IMG/VR virus record: IMGVR_UViG_3300022911_000011
Location: 1 to 38,404 of that record
Origin: a virus
DNA: 38,404 nucleotides
Strand: one strand, 5' to 3'
Positions 11,709 to 33,987 of the stretch are shown here, piece by piece. The notes under the pieces were generated by a model. It did no database searches. It worked only from the letters and a program-made list of their open reading frames with translations, and was not told the DNA's origin. Position 1 is the stretch's first letter. The number at the start of each line of letters is the position of its first letter. The position numbers and the translations under genes were made by a program.

Positions 11709-13445
11709 ATGGCCGATAGAAAAATGTCTGCCTTCGCGGCCATCACGGCTGCGGGCCTCGCTGATAACGATTTGATTCCGGTTGTCGATGTTTCGGCTGG
11801 CGCGGTTGACGCCGGTAACAAAGTGCTCGCATGGAGCGAGCTAAAGACGATGATTTTTAACGGAGGCATTGCCGTCGTTAATACCGTCGCCGGGACAGCG
11901 AACGCGATCACCGGCGCGTTGTCCTTCGGTGTCCCGACAGACGGCAACTTCCTCACGCTGATCCCGACACTAGACAACACCGGGGCCGTGACGTTGGCGC
12001 TAACGGGCGACTCTGCGCGGGCTATACAGGATTCGCGCGGGCTTGCGCTAGGTGCGGGGCGGCTGTTTGCTGGTCGTATCTATCTGCTCAAGCGGATTGG
12101 CACCGTCTATCGGCTCGTAACAGAACCGAAATACGAAACGGGTTTGCCGTTTGTTACAGCCATGACCGGAACCGCCGACGCGATTGCGGGTTCGCTATCG
12201 TTCGGCATCCCGACCGATGGTCAGCTTTTGGTTCTGACACCGACTGCCGACAACACCGGCGCGGTGACGCTCAATCTAACAGGTGACGCGGCGCGGTCTG
12301 TTCGTGATGCGTCAGGAGCCCTTCTTGGCGCGGGTCGGTTGCTGACGGGTCGCAATTACATCCTCCGCCGCAATAGCAGCCTTTACAATCTCGTCACGGA
12401 GGCATTGACACAGCTCGATGCAAATAGTTACGGTCCGCACCTCTTGGGAACTGTTACGTGGATTAGCGACCAAGCTCTGACTGCTATTGCACCGTCTAAG
12501 ATGAATCCGATCCTGCGCGACGGCCAGCTTGCGCTTATCGTATTTCCGACAACCAACCTCAACACGCTGATTCAACTTAACATCAGCGGCGGCGGCAACC
12601 GAGTTGTTCGTGACGGCTTAGACGTGGCACCGCCTGTTGGATCAATCGCTCCGGGCGTCACCTATACAATGCGCTATGACCTCGCAACGACGCGGTGGCG
12701 CATTATCGGAGGCACTATCAACGCCCAAGACCGTGCTTACGTTCTGGATCGTGCGAACCATACCGGCAAGCAGAAACTTCCGACCGTCATAGATGCTCCG
12801 CATCTGATCGGGATCAATCTTGTTGCGATGCTGAATGATCCGCCGTCTCGGATGCTTGAGGCGCTCAAGGGTCTGGCCGACATTTACTTCGACGCCGATA
12901 CGCTGCCATTGGGCAATATCGCGAACCTGCAAACGGAAGGGACGCTCGCGCCACTGTATACTCTATCCGGAAGTGGTGCGGTCCCGGAAAAGATCGCGGC
13001 TGGTCTCTGGTTTAAGAACGCACAGTTCTTGCTCTACAAGCCTGTCACGCCTACGATCAATAACGTTCGTCGCGCCTTTACAATCATGGAAATGACCATG
13101 ACGGTTTCTCTGGCGACGAACACGTTGTCGGCGCTCAGTCAAATCCTTGCCAACCGATCGAACCTTACCGGCATCCAGTTCGATGCGCTCGGTTACAACA
13201 TTCGGCACATCGGGCCGGGGAACATCGCAAACGACATGACGCCTCAAATCCCGATGAATACCCGTCACCTCGTCGCAGTCGAAACCAACTACGTCGAGGG
13301 AACGACCACGCTGATTTCACCTCGCGACGGTCTGCCTAATACGGTGGCCGTCACGCCGACAGCCGGACCTATCTCGTTGGAAGATTTGCGGATCGGTGCG
13401 CAAAGCGAATTCATCCTCCACCGCTTCATGCTGTTCACGGAGTAA
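11709..13445 (+). CDS. Modular tail fibre protein with tandem beta repeats
   Basis: The 578-residue product starts MADRKMSAFAAITAAGLADNDLIPVVDVSAG, a common N-terminal module of phage side-fibre proteins. Two clearly related modules of about 83 residues follow, at about residues 56-138 and 149-231. Each has TAxAIxGxLSFGxPTDG, a P-T-x-DNTGAVTL strand and GAGRLxxGRxYxLxR; a third, more divergent one runs to about 330. The C-terminal 230 residues resemble a laminin-G-like or concanavalin-like sandwich (LWFKNAQFLLYK...HRFMLF). Adjacent to a polysaccharide esterase gene, it probably binds surface glycan. Confidence 0.65.
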   Translation: MADRKMSAFAAITAAGLADNDLIPVVDVSAGAVDAGNKVLAWSELKTMIFNGGIAVVNTVAGTANAITGALSFGVPTDGNFLTLIPTLDNTGAVTLALTGDSARAIQDSRGLALGAGRLFAGRIYLLKRIGTVYRLVTEPKYETGLPFVTAMTGTADAIAGSLSFGIPTDGQLLVLTPTADNTGAVTLNLTGDAARSVRDASGALLGAGRLLTGRNYILRRNSSLYNLVTEALTQLDANSYGPHLLGTVTWISDQALTAIAPSKMNPILRDGQLALIVFPTTNLNTLIQLNISGGGNRVVRDGLDVAPPVGSIAPGVTYTMRYDLATTRWRIIGGTINAQDRAYVLDRANHTGKQKLPTVIDAPHLIGINLVAMLNDPPSRMLEALKGLADIYFDADTLPLGNIANLQTEGTLAPLYTLSGSGAVPEKIAAGLWFKNAQFLLYKPVTPTINNVRRAFTIMEMTMTVSLATNTLSALSQILANRSNLTGIQFDALGYNIRHIGPGNIANDMTPQIPMNTRHLVAVETNYVEGTTTLISPRDGLPNTVAVTPTAGPISLEDLRIGAQSEFILHRFMLFTE

Positions 13446-13449
13446 AACG

Positions 13450-14715
13450 ATGCCCTATAACGTAGCCGCCCTTTGGGCTCGCGCATCCGGTAAGAACTAC
13501 AATCCGACGCTGCTGCCTCCGCCTTACGAGATAATTGCCTACGATGGACAGTCGCTCGCGCAAGGTCCGACTGGCAGCATTGACGAGAAGCGCACGCAAA
13601 ACATGATGGATCGCCTCGGCGTTGGGATGGTGCGCAACTTGAAAAATACGCTCGGCACTGTCATGTGGACGCAGGGACCGTTTACCGGAACGCTTGATAC
13701 CGCGGTCCCCGGAACAGGTCTTGGCGCCGCTGTTACGGTCGGGAGTCTTACACCCGGTCATTATCTTGCGGTTGCGCTTCGTCGCCGTCGCGAACTCGCA
13801 GGTCTGCCGAATCCGTCGATGATCTTCATGTTCTGCGGTATCTCGGGTCAGCCGATCGAAGAGTTTACCGCCGATCCCGCAACTGGAGTTTACGGCGATC
13901 TCATCCACCGCAACCGTGGATACTGGATGAGCGAAGTCAAGCGCATCCAGCCGAAGGCGATGATGCGGTATGCTTGCTTCTCTCAAGGTGAAGCGGACTC
14001 CGATGACGACGCGGGATTGTATGCTCCGATTGCGCGGACCATGTGGCACGACTGGCTTGCACAGATTCAGGCTGTCACAAGCTCGCTGGCAATGCCAGTC
14101 GTCACTCAGATCGGCGGATACGCGGACAGCCTCACGCCGCCGAAGAACTATGACGTTTGCTTGGAGCAAGTCCAAGTCGCCGAAGAATACGGTGGCCTAG
14201 TTCCCGGTTCGTGGTATCCGTTCCCTGTTGGCGATTTGAACGTTCACCCCGACGCTACGCAGACAATGCTCATGGCGGATACGGTCGCGTGGGCTATCGT
14301 TGAGCATGAACTTGGCCACAGTTGGAAAGCCTTCAAGCCAACGTCCGTTGTAAGGTCAGGCGCGCAACTCGTGCTTACCTATCCGCTGGCCCCCGGCGAA
14401 TCGCTCGTCCTGTCCAACTCGACGAAGTATGATGCTTATGGCGGGATCGCTTTTGGAGGCACGGCCAACAAAGGATTCGAGGCCGGAACGATCAGCGCCA
14501 TTTCTGTTAGCGGTAACAAGTTGTATCTTACAACTGCCTCCGATACGTGGGCTTACGCGATGCAGGTTGCCGATATGACGCCTTACGCGGTGGGTGGTCT
14601 CAACTACGTGGCTCACCGCGGGTTGCTTCGGTCAACACGCCAAACGCCTTCGGTGCTGGTCCCCGGCGAAACGCTCTATAATTGGGCGCTATCGTGGCGC
14701 GGGGGCTTGTATTAA
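13450..14715 (+). CDS. SGNH-type carbohydrate esterase, tail-associated
   Basis: The start is set at the ATG at 13450, five bases after the fibre stop. A longer frame into the fibre gene is unlikely. The 421-residue protein has the blocks of the sialate O-acetylesterase (DUF303) branch of SGNH hydrolases: YDGQSLAQG with nucleophile Ser35 (GQS), FCGISGQPIEEF (Gly block), FSQGEAD (Q179-G-E), and DLNVHPD with the predicted Asp262/His266 pair. It would remove acetyl groups from host capsule or O-antigen during adsorption. The C-terminal 120 residues form an additional beta domain. Confidence 0.75.
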   Translation: MPYNVAALWARASGKNYNPTLLPPPYEIIAYDGQSLAQGPTGSIDEKRTQNMMDRLGVGMVRNLKNTLGTVMWTQGPFTGTLDTAVPGTGLGAAVTVGSLTPGHYLAVALRRRRELAGLPNPSMIFMFCGISGQPIEEFTADPATGVYGDLIHRNRGYWMSEVKRIQPKAMMRYACFSQGEADSDDDAGLYAPIARTMWHDWLAQIQAVTSSLAMPVVTQIGGYADSLTPPKNYDVCLEQVQVAEEYGGLVPGSWYPFPVGDLNVHPDATQTMLMADTVAWAIVEHELGHSWKAFKPTSVVRSGAQLVLTYPLAPGESLVLSNSTKYDAYGGIAFGGTANKGFEAGTISAISVSGNKLYLTTASDTWAYAMQVADMTPYAVGGLNYVAHRGLLRSTRQTPSVLVPGETLYNWALSWRGGLY

Positions 14716-20933: not shown

Positions 20934-21869
20934 TCACCAAAGCCCTTGCATCATTGGCGTCCGAGCCTTCGGTTGCGCCTTCTTTTCATTGATCTGCTGC
21001 TGAATGATCTGATAAGCGAACAGGTTATAGGTAAACCGTCCGAGGTAATGGTCAATCAGATAGTCAGGATTAAACCCCTGCGCGACGAGCGTAGCGACTA
21101 CGCGCTCGCGCTCAATATCGGTCAGGCTGTTGATGTGAGCGCCCTTGTCATGACGACTAGGAGCGTTCTTTGATACATGCAAGCTGCCATAGCCGGGGAA
21201 AGTAATCGCGCCGAACGATGCCGTCTGAATCCACGACGACGAGTCACAGGATCGCCACGGATAACGCTCCATCAGTGCCAGCGACGTGATCCCGAACCCA
21301 TGCACCTTGACCTTGGCCGAGCCATCAGGGTTAATCATGTGGCGAGACCAAACGCGGTCGAGCCATGTAATCAGGTCAGCCGGGGCGCGACCGACGCAGC
21401 CGCCGATGGTGATGTAAGGATAATTGTTCACGTAGTAGTCAAGATACCGCTCGTCCTCACCAAAGTGGAAGCACGGTAGCGGGGTGACGCCTTGCGCCTC
21501 CATAGCCATTTGGTTCTGATATGTCAGGAGCGGATCACCGATGCCGTCCAATACGGAGGCCAGCACAACACCATCTTCGTCGAGGATAGATGAGCGGTTC
21601 GCTTTGATGAAATTGCAGTAGTCGGTTATGTCGATGGTCGCGCCGAGCGTCCATGCGGAAAAGGCACCAGAGTCTAAAAAGACCTTGACCTTTGAGCTTT
21701 TAAGCTCGTCCTGTCGCTTACCGCTCCCAATATAGTGGAAGGATTCCAACCTGTGCGGAACCGTGTCCGCTATCTGGATCAGGTAAGGATCAGTGAGTTT
21801 GTTGTATTCGCCTTGACCCGGAGCCATGCCAACCCACACGGTTGAGGCCATGTAGATCGACAGATTCAT
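20934..21869 (-). CDS. dpdA: DpdA-like DNA 7-deazaguanine transglycosylase (TGT family)
   Basis: The 311-residue protein has the TGT/DpdA pattern. VFLDSGAFSAW (Asp66) matches the DSGGFQ base-pocket motif. It continues with ASVLDGIGDP, ITIGGCVGRAP (153-163), KVHGFGIT (188-195) and SCDSSSW (Asp209, probable nucleophile). It would replace guanine in phage DNA with preQ0 or a related base made by FolE-QueD-QueE-QueC, encoded just upstream in the same direction. Its start overlaps the small Pro-rich gene (ATGA). A second, shorter TGT-like protein lies at 17375-17962. Confidence 0.8.
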   Translation of the reverse strand: MNLSIYMASTVWVGMAPGQGEYNKLTDPYLIQIADTVPHRLESFHYIGSGKRQDELKSSKVKVFLDSGAFSAWTLGATIDITDYCNFIKANRSSILDEDGVVLASVLDGIGDPLLTYQNQMAMEAQGVTPLPCFHFGEDERYLDYYVNNYPYITIGGCVGRAPADLITWLDRVWSRHMINPDGSAKVKVHGFGITSLALMERYPWRSCDSSSWIQTASFGAITFPGYGSLHVSKNAPSRHDKGAHINSLTDIERERVVATLVAQGFNPDYLIDHYLGRFTYNLFAYQIIQQQINEKKAQPKARTPMMQGLW

Positions 21870-22033
21870 TTGGCCTCCGGCGCTGCGCTGGCGGGGGCGC
21901 TGGCAGGCGCGGGGGCTGGCTGGCTGTCATGGGTCGCGGGGGCGCTGTCGGGCGGCTGGACGGCCACGCCACGCAGGGAGGGCAGCGGTTGCTGCGCCAT
22001 CGCATACCACAACGAGGACCAATAGTTGAACAT
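21866..22033 (-). CDS. Small Pro/Ala-rich protein, 55 aa
   Basis: The frame starts MFNYWSSLWYAMAQQPLPSLRGVAVQPP and continues with a tail almost wholly of Ala, Pro and Ser (residues about 28-55). The stop overlaps the DpdA start (ATGA), which supports translation in this operon. The aromatic N-terminus could be a short amphipathic or protein-binding segment and the tail looks disordered. Function unknown; an accessory to DpdA is possible by position only. Confidence 0.5.
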   Translation of the reverse strand: MFNYWSSLWYAMAQQPLPSLRGVAVQPPDSAPATHDSQPAPAPASAPASAAPEAK

Positions 22034-22054
22034 CGCGGCTTATCCCCTTATGAG

Positions 22055-22076
22055 CGCGGCCCCTCGCGGGGCCGCG
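22055..22076 (-). terminator. GC-rich hairpin between folE and the dpdA group
   Basis: CGCGGCCCC and GGGGCCGCG form a perfect 9-bp stem with a four-base loop. It lies 11 bases after the folE stop (in transcription sense) and 21 bases before the next start. No T tract follows on the minus strand, so it may attenuate rather than fully end transcription, or stabilise the folE 3' end. Confidence 0.45.
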
Positions 22077-22086
22077 ACTATTAAGC

Positions 22087-22653
22087 CTAGTCCGCTAGAC
22101 GGATAAACTCCGACCGCGCTTCTGGCTTGTCCTTTATAGCACCTCTAACGGCGCTTGTCAAGGTTTCAGTGCCTTGCATCTGGATACCACGCGATTCCAT
22201 GCACATATGCCGAGCCTTTACAATGACACCGACTCCTAGCGGTTTGAGGTGTTTATCCATCGCATCCGCGATCTGCGCTGTCATACGCTCTTGCACTTGC
22301 AGCCGTCGCGCAAACATATCGACAAGCCGCGGAATCTTCGACAGCCCGACGATCTTGCCGTTCGGTATGTAGGCCACAGTGGCCGTCCCGAAGAAGGGCG
22401 CAAGATGGTGCTCGCACAAAGAGTAAAACGGGATGTTTTTGACGATCACCATTTCATCGTAGTCCGCTGCACCATCCTCAAAAACCTTGAGGATTTGCGC
22501 GGGGTTGCCACCATACCCGGAGGTATGGTGCATCCACGCTTTTGCAAAACGGATAGGAGTATCCCGCAGTCCATCCCGCTCAGTCTCGACCAACTTTAGC
22601 AGCATGTCGGCGGCCATTGCGGCGTTGATATAGTCCTCGGTTGATTGCGTCAT
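22087..22653 (-). CDS. folE: GTP cyclohydrolase I
   Basis: The 188-residue protein is a clear type I GTP cyclohydrolase. Zinc ligands are Cys80 and His83 in [22 protein letters not shown] and Cys151 in [11 protein letters not shown]; the substrate region [23 protein letters not shown] is intact. It converts GTP to dihydroneopterin triphosphate, the first step towards preQ0. It starts at an ATG overlapping the queD stop (ATGA). In this operon it supplies phage base modification rather than folate. Confidence 0.95.
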
Positions 22654-23099
22654 TCATCCCTCGCGTATGTTGCCGAGTTGCCTTCATGTTCGCTGACCTT
22701 GACGGAGAGCAGGATCACGTCGAAGTAATCGTCACCTTGCTGCAACCGATCAAAGATCAGGTCATAGACGAAGCGCGCAAACTCCTCACAACCGACGCCG
22801 GGGACCACGTTCAGGTCGATCAGACCTTTTGTGTTCAGATCGTAGAACGTCGCAATGTGCGGATCGTGCTCGGCGATCAGGGTCTTGTGATCGAAGTTCT
22901 CGACCAGCAAGTCCTTGATCCACTTCAGACCGCCGAAGTCTGCGACCCACCCGTTGAGGTCGAGCGTTAGCGCCCCGAACGTAATGTCGAAGGCCAGCGG
23001 ATAGCCATGCAGGAAGCGGCAATGGCTTTCCGCGGTCGGCTGCCGGAAGCAGGCCGAGAGGCCCAAGCTGTGCGGGTATCTTTTCGTTACCGTGAACAT
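22650..23099 (-). CDS. queD: QueD-like 6-carboxytetrahydropterin synthase
   Basis: The 149-residue protein is in the QueD/PTPS family but of a divergent kind. Where most have AAHR and LHGH it has SACFRQ and HCRFLHGY (Cys27, His31, Tyr33). The rest is recognisable: [17 protein letters not shown] (Asp70-His71), VGCEEFARF and [11 protein letters not shown] (Glu137). I recall a similar variant in alphaproteobacterial genomes. It would make 6-carboxytetrahydropterin from dihydroneopterin triphosphate. It overlaps the queC stop (TAATG). Confidence 0.85.
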
Positions 23100-23845
23100 T
23101 AGCGATAGCCTTTGTAGTTGGGGGTGTCGGGAAGGTCCATCAAGCCCTCGTCGTGAGCGCGAAGGATCAACGGATCAGGCACACCGGCTTCGAAGAAACC
23201 TTTGGCGCGGAGCAGGGTCGCGTGATCGTGTCCGGTCGGCGGATAAGAGCCATCGTAGGACGTGTGGCTATAAGCCAGCGCCTCCATGCAGCCCGGAAGG
23301 CTCTGGGCCAGCATGACCGATGCAGCTTTTGTCAGGTCCATCAGCGGCGTGATAACGTTGAGGTAAGCAGGTCCGCCATCCTCGCCGGTAAAGGTGCCGA
23401 GTTCAGATACGCCTTCAAAAGCGTTGATAAAGTCCCGGCGGCAGTCGGGATAGCCACCAGAATCTTCCTGACAGACGCCACTAACGAGCGTGTCGATGCC
23501 GAGGACATAGGCGCGGTTTGCGGCGATCGTCAGGAACAGTTGATTGCGCATCGGCACGAACGTCTTTTCCAGCCCGCCCGGAAGGCTGTTAAAATCGGCG
23601 TATTGTTCAAGCGGTGCGTCCGATACCAGCGGGCTAGTGCCTTTGAGGATATGTCCAAGCTCGACAAACTCGTGCGACTCGACCCCGGCCATCACGCCGA
23701 TAGTAAGAGCTGCGTCCAGTTCGCGGCGATGCCTCTGCCCGTAGTCGAAGGTCACGGCATGGACACGGCGGAATTGGGTCAGCGCCCAAAAGAGGCAGGT
23801 GGTCGAGTCTTGACCCCCGCTGAACACGACGACACAATCAGTCAT
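23099..23845 (-). CDS. queC: QueC 7-cyano-7-deazaguanine synthase lacking zinc cysteines
   Basis: The 248-residue protein is an N-type ATP pyrophosphatase with PP-loop SGGQDST (9-15), VTFDYGQRH, TFVPMRNQLFLTIAA and VSGVCQEDSGGYPDCRRDFI. These are all typical of QueC, which turns carboxy-deazaguanine into preQ0 using ATP and ammonia. Near the C-terminus QueC normally has four zinc cysteines in a CY...PPCG.C.ACLLRAKGF pattern. Here the corresponding residues are Ser196, Thr204, Asp207 and Thr210, while HTSYDGSYPPTG and LLRAKGF around them are preserved. The zinc site is therefore lost without gross damage. The start overlaps the queE stop. Confidence 0.9.
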   Translation of the reverse strand: MTDCVVVFSGGQDSTTCLFWALTQFRRVHAVTFDYGQRHRRELDAALTIGVMAGVESHEFVELGHILKGTSPLVSDAPLEQYADFNSLPGGLEKTFVPMRNQLFLTIAANRAYVLGIDTLVSGVCQEDSGGYPDCRRDFINAFEGVSELGTFTGEDGGPAYLNVITPLMDLTKAASVMLAQSLPGCMEALAYSHTSYDGSYPPTGHDHATLLRAKGFFEAGVPDPLILRAHDEGLMDLPDTPNYKGYR

Positions 23846-24585
23846 TATTCGACTCCCAAGTATTTGTGGATTTGCAGTTGAAGGGTCAACCCGTCATAGG
23901 TCTGGACGTTTTTCAGAACTTCCAATAGGTTGATGTAGTTGGTATCCTCGTTGCCAGTGTCGGCTGGCTGAAGATAAATCGGCAAGTCCCAACCTTTCGG
24001 CGGGCGGGCCAACTGAGGATTCGCGACATGGCCGAGCGCCTTGGTCGGCAGACCATCGGTCGGAGACATATCGGTGTGATGCAGCACATACTTGAAGCAA
24101 CAGGCGCGGGCCACCGTGTCAGGATGGACAAAGCCAGTCTTGGGCGAGCAGACGATATAGACACCGTGCCGATTGCTCGGGCGGCTCGATACGTCGCGTT
24201 GATAGTAAGAGCGATCCCCGACAAGAGTGGGCGGCGGCAACGTGCCGTTAGTCTCGACCTGCACGTAATAGCCAGCATCGGTGAGTGCATCCAACAGTGG
24301 CCCAATCGGCTGACGGAACGGCTCACCGCCTGTAATGACCACGAGGCCGACGCGACGCAGGTAATAGACGTTCTCGATGATCTCATCGGGAGTCGAGTTA
24401 TACCGGCCCTTTGTGTATTCAGTATCACAAAGCGGGCATTGCAGATTGCAGCCTGCGAGCCGGATAAACACACAAGGCTCACCGCAGAACGGCCCCTCAC
24501 CTTGTATCGTCTGGAAGATGGAATGCACGTCAAGCGTTCCAGTGTAGGTCTTGACGACCTTTTCAATCGGTTGATGATTGAGCAT
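23845..24585 (-). CDS. queE: QueE 7-carboxy-7-deazaguanine synthase (radical SAM)
   Basis: The 246-residue protein has the radical SAM cluster motif CNLQCPLC (Cys46, Cys50, Cys53), the QueE entry DVHSIFQTIQGEGPFCGEPCVFIRLAG, and VVITGGEP (GGEP 86-89) for SAM binding. ETNGT and SPKTG follow. It rearranges 6-carboxytetrahydropterin to the 7-carboxy-7-deazaguanine ring. It is the first gene of the queE-queC-queD-folE operon; AAGGGA precedes the ATG and a strong promoter lies upstream at 24623-24651. Confidence 0.95.
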   Translation of the reverse strand: MLNHQPIEKVVKTYTGTLDVHSIFQTIQGEGPFCGEPCVFIRLAGCNLQCPLCDTEYTKGRYNSTPDEIIENVYYLRRVGLVVITGGEPFRQPIGPLLDALTDAGYYVQVETNGTLPPPTLVGDRSYYQRDVSSRPSNRHGVYIVCSPKTGFVHPDTVARACCFKYVLHHTDMSPTDGLPTKALGHVANPQLARPPKGWDLPIYLQPADTGNEDTNYINLLEVLKNVQTYDGLTLQLQIHKYLGVE

Positions 24586-31383: not shown

Positions 31384-31403
31384 GGGTTGTCCTTTGTGTG
31401 GGT

Positions 31404-31428
31404 GAGGGCCACCGTGACAGTGGCCCTC
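31404..31428. repeat. 9-bp hairpin carrying two copies of the dispersed motif
   Basis: GAGGGCCAC and GTGGCCCTC pair around CGTGACA. The left arm plus loop contains GGCCACCGT and the right arm contains ACAGTGGCC, so two motif copies face each other. It lies in the 61-base gap after the ssDNA-binding gene and may end or attenuate that transcript. No T tract follows. The first 18 bases recur exactly at 34087-34104. Confidence 0.5.
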
Positions 31429-31444: not shown

Positions 31445-32253
31445 TTATTGGGCGGGAGGCGTGTTGCCCCACGGCTGCGGAGCGAACCCCGGCTGCGGTG
31501 CCGGAGCCACCAGCGTTGTCGCGGGCTGCTGAACCTGCGGCTGCGGCTGTTGGGCGAACGGCGGAACCCCGTTGGACTGCGGCTGAGGCTGCTGGACCTG
31601 CGGTTGAGCAAACGGCGGCGCTACGGTCGGTTGCTGCACGACCGGAGGAGGCGCAAAGGTCTGCGCTGGCTGCGGGCTCGGCTGCGCCTGTGGGGCGGTC
31701 TGTGGCGGCGCGAACTGCTGCGCAGGCTGTTGCACCACGGGGGCGGGCTGTTGCGGCTGTTGGGCGGTTGCGGGGGCGCGACGGGGGCATTCCCGCCACC
31801 ACTTGCGCCGCCGATCTGCCCCTTGACCGGGGTTTGACCGTTCATGTCCAGATAGGCCCGAATCTCGTTGTTGTATTTCGGATTGTTCGGGTCTTGCTGA
31901 ATGTCGGTGCGGAGTTGTTTGTCCAACCGCACACGGAACGGACGGCCATGCAGTTGCTGAGTATCCTGCCAAGCAAGGATGCCGCAAACGTGCGAGATAG
32001 CCGACAGGTCGCGGAACGCGATCTCGACAGCCTGCGGGTTCTGGTTGACGATGTTGAGGCGAATCGTCAGCCGCTTGCCAGCAAAGCCATCATCAAGGCA
32101 GACGCATTCGAAAACCAGCATCGTTCCGCCGCCTGCCTTCGTCGGTTTGGTATCCGACTTGACAATCTGGAAGGCATACTCGCCGGGTTCGAACACGTCC
32201 TGCGATCCGGTCGAAGGATCGTATTGTGTTGCATTGAAGTTAATTTGCACCAT
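31445..32253 (-). CDS. DUF669-type ssDNA-binding protein with a frameshift in its Pro/Gln-rich tail
   Basis: The conserved part (about 150 residues) reads FNATQYDPSTGSQDVFEPGEYAFQIVKSDTKPTKAGGGTMLVFECVCLDDGFAGKRLTIRLNI, then QAVEIAFRDLSAISHVCG and FRVRLDKQLRTD. This is the DUF669 family, linked to recombinases and thought to bind ssDNA. From about 31775 the first frame turns to Ser/Arg-rich text and stops at 31621. The -1 frame instead gives a typical low-complexity Gln/Pro tail (APATAQQPQQPAPVVQQ...) ending in PWGNTPPAQ at 31445. A run of five C (minus strand, 31776-31772) is the likely slip or error site. AAGGAG precedes the ATG. Confidence 0.7.
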
Positions 32254-32265
32254 ATTGGTGACTCC

Positions 32266-32970
32266 TTACGCGGTTGCAGGAGCAGCCGGAGCTGCGTTAA
32301 GGATTTTCCCGATGATATTGCTAAAATCAGGATACTCCAACTCGTCCAACGCGCCAGACCGATCCTTGGCTTCCGCATTAAACGCCGCATGAGTGCGGAG
32401 ATAATGGTAGGTTTCGCCTTTGTTGTCTTTATCGGTCGCAGCGTGGAACACGAGGTCGAAAAGATACGGCAGAGCGGGGCCGACTTGCTGGCCGGGTGCC
32501 GTTGGGCCTACTCGTGCAACGCCAGTAACGGCGTCTTGAGTCGTGGCTTGCTTCGCCGTAATCAGCACGTGAAAGCCTGCCAGATCGCGGAACGATTTGA
32601 CAAGATCAATGCTGAGTGTCGCCATCTCGCCGTAGGCTTGGCGAGGGTCTTTGGTCTTTTTCTTTTCGTTGCTCAACACGGTTTCAACGATCTCGGAAAC
32701 TGAGTCCAGACAGACCGTTTGAATGCCGTGCTTTGCAGCGTCCGTCCGACACCACGCCAACGCATCCCACACGTCCTGAACGGTTTTAACCTCCAGAACA
32801 GGGATACGTTTAGCACGGAGAGACAGCAGACCCGCTTCCGCTGATATGATGAGCGGACTTGGTGCGGTGCCGCAGAGGGTTGTTTTACCCGAACCTGCGC
32901 CACCGTAAACTAAAGCCTTGATGCCATGAGTAGCACCAGACTTATCGGTCGTTGACCAATTCAATGGCAT
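32266..32970 (-). CDS. Sak4-like RecA-fold ATPase
   Basis: The 234-residue protein has Walker A GGAGSGKT (23-30) and Walker B TVCLDS (85-90), with SVSEIVETVL following. FHVLITAKQATTQD and RVGPTAPGQQVGPALPYLFDLVFHA follow, as in Sak4-type phage recombinases (single-strand annealing, RecA core). It lies directly upstream of the DUF669 gene with 12 bases between, the usual pairing. Good AAGGA before the ATG. Confidence 0.8.
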   Translation of the reverse strand: MPLNWSTTDKSGATHGIKALVYGGAGSGKTTLCGTAPSPLIISAEAGLLSLRAKRIPVLEVKTVQDVWDALAWCRTDAAKHGIQTVCLDSVSEIVETVLSNEKKKTKDPRQAYGEMATLSIDLVKSFRDLAGFHVLITAKQATTQDAVTGVARVGPTAPGQQVGPALPYLFDLVFHAATDKDNKGETYHYLRTHAAFNAEAKDRSGALDELEYPDFSNIIGKILNAAPAAPATA

Positions 32971-33103: not shown

Positions 33104-33397
33104 TCAGGAAGCGCCGTCAGCGTCCTCTTCGGATTCCTCTTCATCGTCGTCCTCGGCATCGTCGTCGATGCCGTCGTCGTCCTCATCCTCATCGTCCTCA
33201 TCGCCATCGTATTCAGGATCGTCGTCCTCGGGCGCGGGCGGAGGTTCCGGTGCATCCATCGGCGGCTCGCCACCGAGCGGCGTATCGGACGGCGGCACGA
33301 AGTTGGGATCGTCACCCGCGTAGGGCGCGGGCTGCGCGGGCGGCTCGGCCGGGGTCGGTGCCGGGGTCGGCTCGTCGTTTTCGGGCAGGTCGTTCAT
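33104..33397 (-). CDS. Pro-rich/acidic disordered protein
   Basis: The 97-residue protein has a Pro/Ala-rich first half (PENDEPTPAPTPAEPPAQ) and a second half of Asp and Glu (about residues 57-97, more than 30 acidic residues). GAGGAG lies before the ATG. It is certainly disordered and very acidic. It may mimic DNA or bind a basic partner, such as a DNA-binding protein of the next operon genes. Reported here as unknown. Confidence 0.6.
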   Translation of the reverse strand: MNDLPENDEPTPAPTPAEPPAQPAPYAGDDPNFVPPSDTPLGGEPPMDAPEPPPAPEDDDPEYDGDEDDEDEDDDGIDDDAEDDDEEESEEDADGAS

Positions 33398-33437
33398 GAG
33401 TGTCTCCTCATAGGGTCGTGGGGCTTTGGTGAACGTA

Positions 33438-33462
33438 GTCGGCCCGCCCCACGGTGGCCGAC
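33438..33462. repeat. 7-bp hairpin in the gap before the acidic protein
   Basis: GTCGGCC and GGCCGAC pair around an 11-base loop that contains part of an ACGGTGGCC copy. It lies in the 73-base intergenic gap, about 40 bases before the ATG at 33397, between the gene ending at 33471 and the acidic gene. It may act as a terminator or leader. Confidence 0.35.
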
Positions 33463-33470
33463 ACGCATTC

Positions 33471-33683
33471 TTAATCCTTGTGGTTCATCACCAGCAGCGT
33501 TGCGCGGCCCATCAATTCGATTGCTTGATCGAAGTCCTTGGTAAGCGCCTTCAACCCTTCAACGTCATATACTTCGGGGCTGGCTCTATTCAGAACGTTT
33601 TGCGCGCCGAGGCTGCAAGCAATCATGTTTTGCAACACAGTTTGCATCTGAACGATTAGTTGATCCATGAGGCGTTCTGACAT
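33471..33683 (-). CDS. Hypothetical helical phage protein
   Basis: The start is set at the ATG at 33683, one base after the previous stop, giving 70 residues: MSERLMDQLIVQMQTVLQNMIACSLGAQN..., ending in DFDQAIELMGRATLLVMNHKD. It looks fully helical. A longer frame overlaps the upstream gene and is a shadow. No family. Confidence 0.6.
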   Translation of the reverse strand: MSERLMDQLIVQMQTVLQNMIACSLGAQNVLNRASPEVYDVEGLKALTKDFDQAIELMGRATLLVMNHKD

Positions 33684-33684
33684 A

Positions 33685-33987
33685 TCAATCCACCCGATAG
33701 ACGATATATTCGCCTGTCGGCTGGATGATCGCCAGCCAGTCAAACTCGAACAGGACGATTGCTTCGTGGCGCAGCATGGCGAAGCTGACAGGGCGGAGCG
33801 ACGGATCGCCGGGATAGTTGAGCGACCAATCCTTGCTGCCATTACCGCGCAGTTTGAAGCCTTCAGACGGCTTGCCCGATCCGAACGGGTAATTGGCCAG
33901 GAGTTGATCGTAGGCGCAGCGTTCATCGTCTGCGCTGAAGAAGTCGGGTAGCAATCCCGCCTGAATCATATTGCTAAAACGTATCAT
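33685..33987 (-). CDS. Hypothetical phage protein
   Basis: The ATG at 33987 has AAGGA at good distance; a TTG one codon before is possible. The 100 residues read MIRFSNMIQAGLLPDFFSADDERCAYDQLLANYPFGSG...KDWSLNYPGDPSLRPVSFAMLRHEAIVLFEFDWLAIIQPTGEYIVYRVD. It is the first gene of its operon, behind a leader hairpin at 34011-34044. Family unknown. Confidence 0.6.
   Translation of the reverse strand: MIRFSNMIQAGLLPDFFSADDERCAYDQLLANYPFGSGKPSEGFKLRGNGSKDWSLNYPGDPSLRPVSFAMLRHEAIVLFEFDWLAIIQPTGEYIVYRVD

Follow-up and report, generated by a model that had tools for sequence, protein, structure and literature searches.

The single-stranded DNA-binding protein (SSB) of phage HK620 carries a DUF669 domain, is encoded next to sak4 and depends on its last six residues for binding Sak4 on coated ssDNA (PMC5928155). 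The same study describes the tip of this protein as acidic (NDYPPF) and reports that removal of the last six residues lowered recombineering 10-fold, to a level still 3-fold above that with Sak4 alone (PMC5928155). Here we analysed an SSB gene in a viral sequence of 38,404 bases (the window, meaning the whole stretch of DNA under analysis), which resembles its HK620 counterpart in the DUF669 domain, in its place right after a Sak4-like gene and in a C-terminal tail with an aromatic tip. It differs from the HK620 gene in that the tip in its relatives is a Pro-Trp pair inside a Pro/Gln/Ala tail rather than an acidic one, and in that the tail in the window is out of frame. At the level of the domain it is similar to the SSBs of Aminobacter phage Erebus, Paracoccus phage vB_PmaS-R3, Rhizobium phage RHEph04, Vibrio phage VpKK5 and Pseudomonas phage PaMx25 (39-44% identity), which share the Trp tip at the end of Gln/Pro-, Gln/Gly- or Gln/Asn-rich tails and, unlike the gene in the window, are all encoded in a single frame. 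Another possible comparison is with phage genes that use programmed -1 frameshifting, of which the lambda tail genes G/GT are an example. The locus shares with these genes a switch of -1 from one open frame to another, but shows no conserved slippery site, no stimulator and no conserved split.

The SSB gene lies on the minus strand, with its ATG at 32253 and a whole extent of 31445-32253. A previous sequence-only reading had taken it for an ssDNA-binding protein gene, which profile comparisons bore out. Indeed, the frame-0 product matched phrog_6015 ('single strand DNA binding protein') with an E-value of 1.4e-41 and Pfam DUF669 (PF05037) with 45.9 bits (E 8.2e-12), above the curated cut-off of 21. 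The interval given in that reading, 31621-31800, falls inside the gene and represents only part of it. The DUF669 ssDNA-binding domain corresponds to about residues 1-145 of the frame-0 ORF; past GGGNAPVAPP, frame 0 becomes Ser/Arg-rich, and the tail with the aromatic tip is present in the record out of frame (-1) with the domain. An in-frame tail of this kind is usual in the relatives and is not part of the phrog_6015 and PF05037 family models. The gene adjoins the sak4-like gene, as DUF669 SSBs do, Sak4 being their known partner. The features of the locus are as follows.

32266-32970, minus strand: Sak4-like ssDNA annealing protein gene, directly upstream of the SSB gene (phrog_124, E 8e-53; Pfam AAA_24, E 4.5e-24).
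31621-32253, minus strand: frame-0 ORF of 210 residues with its stop at 31621, comprising the DUF669 domain, a short Gly-rich linker and about 47 out-of-family Ser/Arg-rich residues.
31783-31787, minus strand: first run of five C, where a frame change would add two Arg to the tail.
31772-31776, minus strand: second run of five C, from the run scan.
31758-31776, minus strand: frame-change stretch, which takes in the second run of five C together with the bases that directly follow, from the change-point posterior and the run positions.
31739-31743, minus strand: third run of five C, from the run scan.
31445-31764, minus strand: -1-frame Gln/Pro-rich tail with the Trp tip PQPWGNTPPAQ, followed by the stop at 31445, from the translation and the codon model.
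31403-31428, minus strand: strong hairpin (z -3.9) without a T tract, just after the -1-frame stop; the relatives are similar.

To locate the change of frame, we trained a codon log-odds model on the SSB tails of 48 relatives, omitting 7 of the 55 related loci (L007, which is split; L034, which is cut by a contig end; L029, which has an Asn-rich tail; and the near-duplicates L033, L036, L047 and L055). The model picked the correct frame in 48/48 leave-one-out tests. In the window, frame 0 reached +0.45 and +1.02 bits per codon in the pair of 30-base bins that spans 31821 to 31762 and fell to between -1.5 and -3.8 thereafter; for the -1 frame, the values were -2.18 and -1.38 in that pair and between +0.54 and +2.71 in every later bin. 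The translations and the codon model thus confirmed the frame change that had been noticed before, with Ser/Arg text in frame 0 and a Gln/Pro tail in -1. The posterior probability of the change point was 0.53 at 31764, 0.38 at 31761, 0.05 at 31767, 0.03 at 31758 and 0.008 at 31770. Judged by codon use, the switch is therefore most likely placed at 31758-31770, a short distance past the second run of five C and not inside it, although its exact place is uncertain within 31758-31776 because no more than about two codons inform it. The run itself, which had been proposed as the exact site of the switch, is not favoured by the model, whose best change point lies a few bases beyond.

The same gene could be followed through 55 related loci in viral_contigs (IMG/VR), of which 53 encode domain and tail in a single frame; the other two are L034, where the SSB gene is cut by the contig end, and L007, which has a frame change. 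The latter occurs at a run of 14 C (L007:3647-3660) in the sense opposite to that in the window, and the tail then ends in APPWMRGQ. None of the 54 loci with a complete tail showed a -1 split, L007 being the only split one, in the other direction. Of 368 matching phage records, the SSBs of eight cultured phages were read, and all eight were single-frame with a Trp tip. Conservation of the short Ser/Arg tail among relatives had been named as an observation that would speak against the frame-change proposal, and such a tail was found in 0/54 complete-tail contigs and 0/8 cultured phages, the sole partial likeness being the frame-0 tail of L007, which ends in an Arg-containing stretch past its own frame change at the 14 C. 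A second copy of the phage was sought in viral_contigs with an exact 36-base pattern, which gave 0 matches; no relative was found in genome_contigs, and blastn against the phage collection gave no match, in collections from which near-identical records may be missing.

By its codon use and its likeness to these relatives, the -1-frame tail is the genuine C-terminus of the SSB. It shows the codon use of the family along a stop-free stretch of about 105 codons, and it therefore does not appear decayed. A [PSAD]W pair lies within the last 30 residues in 52 of the 53 complete relatives (L007 and L034 left out; the 53 include several near-duplicates, and these counts are therefore not independent), with L017 as the exception. 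In a control on the 48 tails, [PSA]W was found in the last 30 residues of 46/48 right-frame readings versus 7/96 wrong-frame readings. The -1-frame stop is also the one followed by structure: folding gave a z-score of -4.1 after 31445 versus +1.2 for the 60 bases that follow the frame-0 stop at 31621. A hairpin signal of z < -2 in the 60 bases past the stop was seen in 40 of the same 53 partly redundant relatives, and in 4/53 for a control stretch inside the gene. A consensus scan found no T-tract terminator downstream of the SSB gene, so the hairpin stands alone; a terminator is annotated at this place in two cultured-phage records. The distance to the ATG of the next ORF is 61 bases from the -1 stop versus 237 from the frame-0 stop. 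The Trp tip, as in 52/53 relatives, and the post-stop hairpin bear out the earlier view of the -1 tail as the proper one.

Taken together, the locus is best read from its sequence as an ordinary single-frame phage DUF669 SSB gene with a one-base displacement inside it. Among the explanations for this displacement, we rank an assembly error as most likely, a recent mutation as less likely and a programmed frameshift as very unlikely. The first two had rightly been listed by the sequence-only reading, and we keep them as the two leading ones; since the relatives keep the SSB gene whole, either is likelier than a new two-protein mechanism. The displacement is probably an error in the assembled sequence, because the stretch has a high GC content, is repetitive and contains many short C runs. 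According to this scenario, the SSB would normally consist of the DNA-binding domain and the Pro/Gln tail in one reading frame, ending in the Trp tip; the frame of the record would have been displaced by one base at the C-rich start of the tail, and the real phage would make the full protein, whose Trp tip probably recruits the neighbouring Sak4 annealase, by analogy with phage HK620. It is not clear that a simple homopolymer error was the cause, given that the best-scoring change point falls a few bases beyond the run of five C.

The composition of the window bears on this question as well. It contains no homopolymers of at least 6 bases and 64 runs of exactly 5, while 22/22 comparison pieces of 38.4 kb each have 2 to 85 runs of at least 6 (2 to 24 in the 15 pieces with a GC content of 0.52-0.60). 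This weakly suggests that runs have been shortened in the record, although a count of zero is not extreme, as the low end among the comparison pieces is 2. Systematic shortening as the full cause was rejected, since other genes should then be broken and none credibly is in the compared part of the window. For this screen, nine phage records supplied 2,991 stop-to-stop ORFs, of which 448 matched the window, the aligned stretches covering 17,199 of the 38,404 bases and 35 of the 64 five-base runs, with a few wrong-strand low-complexity matches among them. In these 17,199 bases no other credibly broken gene was found, and the frame break of the SSB gene thus appears as an isolated event, although the sensitivity of the screen is limited because tails align poorly and the SSB break itself was not flagged. 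One break that was flagged, at about 33391-33839, was judged to be due to chance (the identities are low, at 47% and 31%, the gap spans about 290 bases, and one of the two ORFs contains acidic low-complexity sequence). A frame break between tail-fibre ORFs at 13445 was ruled out, as a stop at 13443-13445 is followed by an ATG at 13450.

Elsewhere in the window, a 7-deazaguanine module occupies 20934-24585 and comprises genes for a queuine tRNA-ribosyltransferase-like protein, a GTP cyclohydrolase, QueD, QueC and QueE, in an order resembling that in Aminobacter phage Erebus. From this module, the phage may modify guanine in its own DNA. DNA modification of the 7-deazaguanine type can disturb nanopore reading. 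Three runs of five G lie within 50 bases (21893-21942) upstream of the start of the tRNA-ribosyltransferase-like gene.

A real and recent frameshift in the sampled phage population is a possible though less probable explanation. The split stands in the record as deposited, the stretch is composed of short repeats and C runs, and loss of the tip is partly survivable in the HK620 SSB (PMC5928155). If such a mutation had occurred, which we consider the less likely case, the mutant would make an SSB of 210 residues that would still bind ssDNA, but without the Pro/Gln tail and the Trp tip, and this truncated protein should help its Sak4 partner poorly because the tip is missing. Against this scenario, the tail is undecayed, which would require a mutation of very recent origin that is nevertheless fixed in the assembled consensus, and the single-frame state of the tail in 53/55 relatives suggests that it is under selection.

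Programmed -1 ribosomal frameshifting or transcriptional slippage at the C run, which would yield a short tipless and a long tipped SSB, is very improbable at this locus. It would be in line with the long overlap open in both frames, with the presence of two Pro codons, CCC-CCG, at the second run of five C, which by our own reasoning would permit a one-tRNA slip by one base, and with the L007 tail, which also changes frame, at its 14-C run. However, the slippage option raised in the sequence-only reading found no support: folding around and from the run of five C onward was no better than that of shuffled sequences (z +1.2, +1.6 and +0.3, in pseudoknot-free predictions), no good tandem X XXY YYZ heptamer was seen by eye at 31758-31776, where a one-tRNA slip alone would be possible, and no relative has the same -1 split, 53/55 needing no slip and L007 shifting in the opposite sense. 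In the open-licence literature, we found no paper joining DUF669 and frameshift and none joining programmed frameshift, single-stranded DNA-binding protein and phage, and a search for transcriptional slippage with single-strand binding protein gave nothing relevant by title. It is similarly improbable that the tipless SSB coats ssDNA while the tipped form recruits Sak4, with slippage setting the ratio of protection to annealing. Least probable of all is a separate tail gene in the -1 frame that would overlap the SSB gene, in favour of which an ORF with a TTG start (31445-31987) can be cited, since the -1 frame upstream of about 31765 is unlike the family tail (negative log-odds) and overlaps the conserved SSB domain, and the relatives fuse tail and domain.

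Returning to the reading of the locus as a displaced single-frame gene, the Trp tip is likely the partner-binding end of the SSB in the window, by analogy with the HK620 protein; should the split be real, the SSB in its short form would be without it. No open-licence paper was found that joins Sak4, single-stranded DNA binding, tryptophan and C-terminal tail. The locus also calls for caution, as the functional tip of an SSB escapes annotation when its Pro/Gln-rich tail is shifted by a single base. For the family, the near-universal Trp tip together with the post-stop hairpin (loci L002-L056) provides a testable candidate for a Sak4-binding tip outside the HK620-type SSBs.
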